Positions 8,372 to 20,093 of a DNA stretch of 64,000 nucleotides are shown one piece after another. Position 1 is the stretch's first letter; each line of letters begins with the position of its first letter. The position numbers were made by a program, and so were the translations under genes. The notes beneath the pieces were generated by a model, which searched no databases, had not been told where the DNA came from, and saw only the letters and a program-made list of their open reading frames with translations. Source of the stretch: Polytrichum commune (lineage: Eukaryota; Streptophyta; Polytrichopsida; Polytrichales; Polytrichaceae); contig OX485804.1 in NCBI GenBank assembly GCA_950295325.1, positions 34,906,001 to 34,970,000 of the forward strand, in the 5' to 3' direction.

Positions 8372-11300
8372 CTACGACTGCACAGCAATCAAGTCACCAC
8401 GCCTCTCAGACTGATTGCGGTGGCTGACATTCACATGGATGCGGCCTGGCTCCAACCGAATATTGGTTTTCTGGCAGCTTTTCCCAGGAGGACCCTTCTC
8501 TCGGTCGTTTCCCAAGGGTGGCTGCCCCGCGTGCTGTCTCTTCTCATTCACAACAGCAAGCGAGTGGCCATGGAGCTTGCACTCCTTCAAGCCATCGCTG
8601 CTACTCGAACGTGGGAACTGACGCTCGTAATTCCAGCTTTCCTTCACGAGGCTGCTGCTGCCACCCTCCGAGACGCCCGCATATGCAACCTCACCTTGAA
8701 CTCTCTCTCGCACCGTGACCTTTCGTGGCTGCGAGCTTTGATGAGTCCCCTTGGTGAACTCCGAGTCCCCATTGCGCGCAAGAGCGCGGTGGAGGCCGCG
8801 CTTCCCACCTGCTACGGTTTTGAGTCTGCTTGGGGAGATGTAAATCCCAGAGCGTCGCATGGGCGAGAAGAGGCCCCTGTTGATAGTTCGTGATGGGGAG
8901 AAGTTGGAGCATCCACTGAGCCTCGACGGAGGAGATTGGCTGCGGCTGTCCAGCCTGGGATGGTTGCCTCTTAGAGGTGGCGAATGGCTTCGTCCACGCC
9001 GTGTTCCTCCTCTCTTGTTGGTCGTTTGTCGATTCTCAATCCTGGGGTTGTTTGGACTTTTGCTGGCTGTGAGCATGCGGAACACTTTCACGAGCTCGGC
9101 CCCAAGTGCTCCGCACTTGCTCTCCGCTAGCGCTGCCCCTTCGAGAGCAGATTGCACCCCCACCGAGACGCGCTCCACCTTGCTGTCTAGCAGTCTGCAA
9201 GGAGGAAAAAGGAGTTCGCCCTCGTTAAGAAATCCCCCACCAATTTGAGGCCTTCTTTACAATATAGCTGAGCTGAGAGCTCGAACTTGCAAATTCTGGG
9301 AATTTAACACTTGGATCTGACAAGCTTTCATCCAAAGCTTCAATTCACCAATCTTTGGGCTTTCAATAGTTTGAGCAAGTGTAATGTGGCCATGTTCAAA
9401 GGGAGATATCAAGGGGATGGCACTAAACAAAGAAAAATCCATGAAAAGTCAAGGAATGCTTCAAAATCCATTGGTTTGGGGCCACAAAACGAAAGCTCGA
9501 AATCACGACATTCTTAAGCCACATCCATGAGGTATAAGCTTACAATTTTGACCGAGAGAGCTTGTCATAGATGTTCAACATCGGATACATCACAGCACCA
9601 TTTAAGTGCTATAAGCCCGGTAAAAAGTACCAGCTCTTCAATGAAAGCTCAAGCTTAAGAGCTCCTTTCCGCCAATGAGAAGGCTTCCTTCTTGAGGCTC
9701 TCAATCTTCGAGCTCTCAACCTCTCTAGTGTAAATGGGGGCTGAGTTAGGCATCAAATTCTCGTGAATTTGATTCAATTTACTGGTGGCGAGTCGGATGA
9801 AACACTCACTGTAGATTTGTAAATGTGGCCGCCGCGACGTGTTCAATGCGATTTTCCAAGCCGTGTAGGCGACTGTCCAGTCCCATGTCTTGCCCTCCCA
9901 TCATAACACCGTTGTGGTCCGTCATCATTTCCATTTTCCTGTGTCCACGTTTATCCCTGTGAGTTCACGACAATTCCACATGATCTCTGGGTCCAAATGC
10001 ACAAAAAGCTTTCCAAGGTGCAGATGTGAGCATGCTTGTGATTATTCCACATCTTGATACCTGGTCACTCTGTAGCGAACATCTCCCGTCAGGAGTTTAA
10101 GATGTTGGAAGAAGAATAAATAAACAAGACGCTGAACGTTGCAAATTTAAAATGCTACTAGAACACGACGGACCTCCACCTGGGAGATATCATCAAACGT
10201 AGGATCGAGACAAGAGGACATTAATTTATTCTGTGAAGAAGAAAAGTGATGCAAAGAAAATAACCTCTCCAATGCTTGGCCACTTTGATTCTGCGTCCCT
10301 AAGACCTGCATGCACCGCTCAGGATCATTGTTCTTCTCTGTGTACTCCAGCTTGACAGAGAGCTCAGGCCTTGGCCGTCCTTCTGAGTGACTTAATGTAT
10401 TCTCCAGCCTTGCCACTCGATTTTCAACCTCGGCGACTGCCTGGAGGACCAAAAGTGCACTTGCAATGCTTTATTTTACAGGAATAGTGTCTCCTATATA
10501 TTTTTCTCCCCTATCCAAATTTGATATATTAGCAGTAGTTCCCCACTCCCATACCAAAAAGATTTAGCAAGAAGAAAAAGGGGGGAAAACAAGGGGTCGA
10601 CGTCGTGATAAAAGTAAAGTATTCCCCAGCCAAATTGTCAAACGCAAAATGTGATTGCGCTAGTGCAAAGGACAATTCCCCTTGAATATGGTTGCTCTCT
10701 TCCTATTATCCGTGCGCATACAACCGCCAAGGTAGCATCCCTTTCCCATACCAAAAACATCCAAAGAAAAGGAGAAAAGAATCCAAGGATCCACTTCATG
10801 ACAAAAGAAAACTTTCCCCGCCAACACGAGTTTGAAAGTCGAATCAAATTCTGAGATGATTTAGATGACATAGATGACCTAATACCTGGAATTGAGCGCG
10901 TTCGCTATTTTCCACACGCTCATGAAGATCTTGGAGGTCTAACCCGATGTCCTTCATAGCGGAAGTGGAAATGACCAGATCTTTCAAGCTCTGCACTTTG
11001 GTCTCGGCCACACGGGAGATTTGCTGCTCCAGGCCCTCATCACAAGCAAAGCCCTCAAACCTCTCCTCCACTCGCTCCACCTTGGTGGAGAGGTCGTTCA
11101 CAACACGAGCCGCCGCTTCGTACCGGGGAAGCCACGTGCTGATCGTTTTCCCAAGGTTGGAAGTGTTGGTGCGCACCTCCTCGACGGACTGCACGAGGTC
11201 TGCTTGTGTGTTTTCAACTCTCTTCATCCTTTTATTGGTTTCGGACTGCGTTAAGGAAGTTTCGTGAACTCTCTTCTCCACAGCTCGTACAACCTAAGAG

Positions 11301-20093: not shown

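Follow-up and report, generated by a model that had tools for sequence, protein, structure and literature searches.

The window analyzed here is a 64,000-nucleotide stretch of Polytrichum commune DNA (C2:34906001-34970000). On its minus strand, 15 exons form one open frame that begins with ATG at 20093 and ends with the TAG stop at 8372, and a TGA stands in frame directly 5' of this ATG. When the exon 14 acceptor was set at 9956, the frame of 6,537 nt and 2,178 residues proposed in a first-pass annotation was reproduced exactly, with one stop, at the end only. When the acceptor was set at 9938, the frame was 6,519 nt and encoded 2,172 aa; residues are numbered below according to this shorter form. 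The locus is a single intact nuclear gene, and its product comprises a head, a rod, and a tail.

All exons lie on the minus strand. Exon 1 (19370..20093; aa 1-241) carries the start codon, a short predicted coil (51-84), and a Pro/Ser-rich part, and exon 2 (16635..18685; aa 242-925) completes the head. The rod starts in exon 3 (16211..16489; aa 926-1018) and is continued by exon 4 (15463..15735; aa 1019-1109), exon 5 (15038..15169; aa 1110-1153), a symmetric phase-0 exon, exon 6 (14514..14810; aa 1154-1252), exon 7 (13813..14085; aa 1253-1343), exon 8 (13382..13561; aa 1344-1403), exon 9 (12793..13122; aa 1404-1513), exon 10 (12276..12560; aa 1514-1608), exon 11 (11833..11991; aa 1609-1661), and exon 12 (10886..11293; aa 1662-1797). 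Exon 13 (10265..10440; aa 1798-1855) and exon 14 (9810..9938; to aa 1898) follow, and exon 15 (8372..9194; from aa 1899) contains a predicted helix, the basic tail, a conserved C-terminus, and the stop codon. The phase is 1 for intron 1, 0 for introns 2 to 12, and 2 for introns 13 and 14.

Several other features were observed in the window. A perfect (GA)105 microsatellite occupies 18710-18919 within intron 1, just 5' of the exon 2 acceptor. An alpha/beta-hydrolase-like gene lies on the minus strand at 22438-24224, upstream of the coiled-coil gene (Pfam Abhydrolase_1, in one of the three open reading frames (ORFs) scanned). On the plus strand, a receptor-like protein kinase gene with at least three exons spans 54646-58283 (PF00069 and PF07714, 3/3 ORFs), and a tandem repeat with a 24-bp period lies between two of its exons at 56733-56979. 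Moreover, the frame of a glycine-rich repeat protein was found on the plus strand at 43989-44681; it had no Pfam match (E<=0.01), and a possible signal peptide was seen by eye.

Gene model and second gene

The coding potential of the model was evaluated using a codon log-odds score with leave-one-out over exons. The claimed frame ranked first of six in all 15 exons, and the 14 introns were all negative in the three forward frames, with the same introns also forming the background of the score. The first-pass annotation had argued that a closed frame of this length could not be due to chance; the exon frame ranking, together with a collinear paralog on contig C5, rules out chance open frames.

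The genome searched has 64 contigs and a total length of 408 Mb. When exon 2 was used as the query, it matched the window, an identical exon on contig C58, and two adjacent diverged stretches on C5. From the latter, a paralog was assembled at C5:51067515-51078882, consisting of 14 exons in the same order and encoding 1,839 aa in 5,520 nt with one stop. Parts of exons 2, 3, 6 to 12, 14, and 15 were located using tblastn (E 3e-4 to 9e-53), and exon 13 was located weakly in the same way (E 6.5). Exon 4 was taken from the open-frame list; exon 1, like all exon ends, was placed by eye. No counterpart of exon 5 was found in the paralog region (C5, 20 kb). The 13 introns of the paralog match the window gene in phase, and 12 of them are of GT-AG type; the one between head and rod is GC-AG, as in the window gene. 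Exons 3 (279 nt in both), 6, 7, and 8 are equal in length between the two genes. Since the boundaries were chosen with the window model known, the support of the paralog for the gene model is strong but not blind.

The protein identity between the two genes was highest in exon 6 (66%), followed by exons 7 (52%), 10 (48%), 8 (47%), 12 (46%), 14 (45%), 9 and 15 (42% each), 4 (38%), 3 (32%), 13 (30%), exon 2 (29%, shuffle z 12.3), and exon 11 (28%). The identity of exon 1 was 18% and not significant (z 1.7). Because no counterpart of exon 1 could be detected in the other gene, the N-terminus rests on the coding signal and splice sites. Genome searches at E<=1 matched the two genes only with exon 15, and the window and C58 only with exon 1, in each case among the best-scored candidates; the search tool scores only these, and more diverged copies could exist. 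The genome thus carries at least two old paralogs, of which the window gene is one. Their base composition differs, the paralog being more AT-rich, with a coding GC of 0.418 vs. 0.524 and a GC3 of 0.389 vs. 0.543 for the window gene. When the 104 window ORFs outside the gene (>=80 aa) were compared with the 20 kb around the paralog, none matched (E 1e-4). The open frames beside the paralog, at 1-5000 of the 20-kb C5 piece, resemble by eye a nucleoporin gene of the NUP93 type.

C58 is a 21-kb contig, of which 19,800 bases were compared and matched window positions 15630-35427 at 99.965%; it is probably an assembly duplicate or the second haplotype. The open frame around exon 2 has 784 codons on C58 vs. 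775 in the window, with a net difference of 2 bases between the stretches. The same comparison also displayed local repeats, 70-78% alike, at 24491-26039.

The splice junctions were scored with reconstructed matrices, and the modelled junctions ranked first among the in-frame alternatives for 11 of the 14 introns. The lowest ranks were obtained for intron 2 (9/52), intron 13 (3/34), and intron 10 (2/58), and all three introns, as modelled, are backed by the paralog; the 3' end of exon 10, for example, is matched by an AAG/GT donor at the corresponding residue. In the case of exon 14, the splice score favored acceptor 9956 over 9938 (13.9 vs. 8.9), but the paralog favors 9938 (R-K-M-E-M vs. R-R-M-E-V). 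Accordingly, the proposed length of 2,178 aa can be reproduced, but the paralog prefers 2,172 aa. A small additional exon seen by eye between exons 9 and 10, near 12711, was dropped because its GT donor breaks the phase.

Intron 2 (16490..16634, minus strand) is the GC-AG intron at the junction of head and rod. Its retention would lead to a stop at 16595-16593 and a predicted head-only product, the exon 2 frame continuing for 13 codons beyond the GC donor. This open continuation and the weak splice score could also indicate two neighboring genes misjoined here, one for a head protein that stops at 16593 and the other for the rod; however, the paralog repeats the head-rod order, its GC donor agrees in phase and its acceptor in position, and the 145-nt gap leaves little space for an intergenic region, so that separate genes are very improbable.

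Conserved segments and architecture of the protein

In the alignment of rod and tail (1,131 codons), the silent sites were saturated (pS 0.82), but dN was lower at 0.48, so both copies look maintained. Between the window gene and the paralog, dN was 0.26 in exon 6, 0.36 in exon 7, and 0.42 in exon 12; it decreased to 0.11 for aa 1899-1942 and to 0.08 for the C-terminal 38 residues, vs. 1.20 in the tail between them, and pS across the five low-dN regions was 0.78-0.96. The conserved parts of the protein are mainly two motifs of the head, one exon of the rod, the helix at the rod end, and the C-terminal 38 residues. Head motif 1 (17613..17705, minus strand; aa 569-599, GVKEDCERFRRQMRLLKQKADVSRIREEEVE) lies within a predicted coil, and head motif 2 (17175..17231, minus strand; aa 727-745, SSLPLSHYIQKLKRLTPDS) opens with an SxLP that is kept in the paralog; each showed 19/25 identical residues between the paralogs. 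In exon 6, the rod motif (14640..14714, minus strand; aa 1186-1210, RERMLIMERVESLSQLYLGGLEEVR) is identical in the paralog at 25 of 25 residues. The rod-end helix (9065..9193, minus strand; aa 1900-1942) falls in a segment with 82% identity (aa 1899-1942), and the C-terminal 38 residues (8375..8488, minus strand; aa 2135-2172) are 84% identical. The tail linker is the least conserved part, at 22% identity. As the linker is nearly unconstrained, the functional end of the protein is probably the C-terminal 38 residues and not the Ser/Arg-rich linker.

The rod also contains a duplicated module. The final 55 residues of exon 8 (copy one) and of exon 9 (copy two) are identical at 28/55 positions (shuffle z 16.4), and the module is visible in paralog exon 8 and, in a shortened form, in paralog exon 9. 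Thus, the exon duplication is probably older than the gene duplication. Later exchange is possible because exon 8 is slightly nearer to exon 9 (51%) than to paralog exon 8 (45%).

Coiled coil was predicted using COILS with a reconstructed matrix, for which a GCN4 zipper control gave P 1.0 and four unrelated window ORFs gave 0 residues in three cases and a false coil of 31 residues in one. With a 28-residue window, 516 of the 1,035 rod residues exceeded P 0.5, in seven segments of which the longest was 163 residues; shuffled rods (n=20) averaged 172 and reached 290 at most. The 21- and 14-residue windows gave 474 and 368 residues. For the paralog rod, 336, 308, and 286 of 941 residues were predicted with the 28-, 21-, and 14-residue windows, respectively. 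In the head, two short segments at 51-84 and 570-612 amounted to 77 residues, and the tail showed none. The rod is therefore an interrupted coiled coil. The first-pass annotation had described a low-complexity head of 925 residues, about 1,000 residues of nearly continuous coiled coil, and a basic Ser/Arg tail; this outline was correct, but the extent of the coil, about half of the rod, had been overstated, and nearly continuous coil is excluded in both genes by the counts above. The low complexity of the head was not borne out either, as a SEG-like measure marked only 142 of its 925 residues (rod, 100/1,010; tail, 12/237).

FoldIndex was negative for 637 of 925 head residues, 726 of 1,010 rod residues, and 228 of 237 tail residues; it marks the tail but cannot separate head from rod because both are mostly negative. 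Disorder of the head rests instead on composition (15% Pro+Gly and 13% Ser in exons 1 and 2) and scant predicted coil. The calculated mass is approximately 241 kDa, and the pI is 9.3 for the head, 5.1 for the rod, and 11.5 for the tail, in which the proposed Ser/Arg-rich character was recovered (14% Ser, 13% Arg). No transmembrane segment was found in the whole protein; the maximum 19-residue Kyte-Doolittle mean of 0.93 rules out a membrane anchor. When exon 15 alone was modelled from a single sequence using AlphaFold2, the mean pLDDT was 46; a helix of low-to-middling confidence was predicted for exon residues 2-43, and a low-confidence beta-hairpin for the conserved C-terminus. These predictions are no more than suggestive. 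A pattern scan of the 2,172-aa protein returned three SxIP-like, seven D-box, five SUMO-like, and three NLS-like matches and no match to RVxF, LC8 TQT, IQ, QWRF, MELT, KEN, or a KASH-like end; of these matches, the SxLP at aa 727 alone is treated as a lead. One bipartite basic cluster lies at aa 436-451, and the tail has six SP sites, three of which are SPxR.

The searches for known families covered Pfam, PDB, and viral and prokaryotic collections, none of which is a plant proteome. Within this scope, the earlier statement that the protein belongs to no recognized family holds. In Pfam-A, no family exceeded its cut-off for nine pieces, two halves, or both whole proteins. The closest was PG_binding_4 on the frame of exon 8 alone (18.6 bits vs. 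a cut-off of 22.1, E 0.0021), which is taken for a chance helix similarity and was absent from the listing for the joined protein. Among PDB chains compared by sequence, the head had no match at E<=1 and the rod with tail none at E 0.01; three matches of exon 1 (E 2 to 6.1) and one of a two-paralog profile (0.57) were all attributed to chance. IMG/VR contained no relative of exon 2 or of the two-paralog profile, and a GTDB scan with exon 12 alone gave no relative. A word-based literature search yielded no paper recognized as describing the protein, which is weak evidence since words and not sequences were matched.

Proposed role and possible cellular locations

Long coiled-coil proteins serve as frames and tethers of cells, and many of those in plants have no known function. 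The protein encoded in the window would most plausibly be a soluble, rod-like, elongated scaffold or tether, to which we assign a probability of roughly 0.6. This reading is favored by the frame ranking of all 15 exons, a predicted coil content (516 residues) above that of every shuffled rod, the phase-matched introns of the second gene, the pattern of selection, the absence of a membrane segment, the basic tail, and the absence of a Pfam family. The rod would dimerize or oligomerize through its coiled-coil segments and act as the elongated element, the head may capture partners by its two short conserved motifs, and a second target may be bound by the rod-end helix and the C-terminal 38 residues, between which lies a flexible, freely evolving basic linker. 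However, the prediction of coiled coil is no proof of oligomerization, and the paralog has less of it (336/941). The locations considered below, namely, microtubules, the nucleus, and organelles, are special cases of the scaffold or tether reading.

A microtubule scaffold outside cilia, cortical or at the plus ends, is fairly unlikely. In such a protein, a contact of EB1 type would be made by the SxLP of head motif 2 and a second one by the basic tail (pI 11.5). Three matches to [ST]x[IL]P occur in the 2,172 residues, and one of them, the SSLP at aa 727 that opens head motif 2, is kept in the paralog and stands beside a basic stretch. Moreover, Arabidopsis GPT1/2 are reported to bind microtubules via basic regions (PMC5288973). 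However, the SxLP motif is short, the basic linker of the tail is less conserved than any other part of the protein, at 22% identity, and no microtubule-binding domain was found in Pfam.

A nuclear or chromosomal filament protein resembling NMCP/CRWN or the transverse filament of the synaptonemal complex, with a central coil and a basic, SP-rich tail lying on DNA, is likewise rather unlikely. The six SP sites of the tail, including three SPxR, and the bipartite cluster at aa 436-451 would suit this assignment, but motifs so short occur by chance, and the SP-rich linker is the very part with 22% identity. A long head is also atypical of the NMCP/CRWN and transverse-filament families.

The first-pass annotation had speculated on a basal-body or cytoskeletal scaffold, on the premise that the lineage has motile sperm. 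This premise was upheld. An exon for the SAS-6 N-terminal domain is present at C2:49623040-49623291, on the window's own contig (PF16531, 77.5 bits with a cut-off of 25, E 2.1e-19), the match spanning profile positions 42-119 of 135; none of 14 control genomes matched. As the genome has SAS-6, the lineage is one with centrioles. In plants, centrioles mean motile sperm. The size of the genome further suggests a seedless plant, since the genomes of cycads and Ginkgo are much larger. A scaffold of the basal body, blepharoplast, or multilayered structure of such sperm would have the rod span a cytoskeletal array and the basic tail contact microtubules, and a rod with a basic tail suits a microtubule scaffold. 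However, SAS-6 shows centrioles in the lineage and nothing more, and neither single sequences nor the two-sequence profile gave a useful similarity to a PDB chain. The presence of SAS-6 permits a basal-body role but is no evidence for it; nothing about the gene points to the sperm apparatus in particular, and the assignment is an unlikely one.

A membrane or Golgi tether of the golgin type is improbable: long interrupted coils are typical of tethers, but the protein has no transmembrane segment, and the Pfam search gave no golgin, GRIP, or other tether domain. It is more doubtful still that the two genes represent a family of structural proteins, absent from flowering plants and animals, that belongs to the locomotory apparatus of seedless-plant sperm (blepharoplast, multilayered structure, or roots of the basal body); the two diverged copies would then share a C-terminal docking segment.

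The gene structure is now checked against a paralog, and the conserved segments would be suitable probes for orthologs, partners, and localization. If the orthologs were confined to plants with swimming sperm, the gene would offer an entry point to the proteins of plant basal bodies, which are poorly known.

Comparison with known systems

ZYP1/SYCP1 and the NMCP/CRWN proteins have a rod, non-coiled ends, and a basic, SP-containing tail. Compared with them by description only, the window protein has a much longer head, and its tail linker is not conserved. BLD10/CEP135 is a very long coiled-coil centriole protein of flagellate lineages. The likeness to it, also by description, is the long coiled coil; no PDB chain gave a useful match, and many centriole proteins may lack a solved chain. 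GPT1/GPT2 are reported to be plant-specific microtubule plus-end trackers that bind microtubules via basic regions (PMC5288973), and the basic region is the only likeness by that description.

A survey of 22 proteomes names KIP1 and filament-like plant proteins among the plant clusters of long coiled-coil proteins and defines membership by an extended coiled-coil domain of >250 residues predicted using MultiCoil (PMC1322226). Set against this length, the rod has 516 predicted residues in total, in seven segments of at most 163 residues, as determined using COILS and not MultiCoil. The Pfam models for filament-like plant proteins and KIP1/NET were not listed at E<=1 for pieces, halves, or whole proteins. 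Relative to the survey's clusters, the difference seen is at the level of Pfam, where no family reached its cut-off.

PICC and PICL of Arabidopsis are long coiled-coil proteins, PICC being 147 kDa, and are reported to have a C-terminal transmembrane domain and orthologs in vascular plants only (PMC3581476). Similar to these, the window protein is a plant protein with a long coiled coil. Unlike them, it has no transmembrane segment (maximum hydropathy mean 0.93), its head comprises 925 residues, and its C-terminus is soluble and conserved. It is best filed as a member of an uncharacterized family of long, interrupted coiled-coil proteins that has two copies in this genome.
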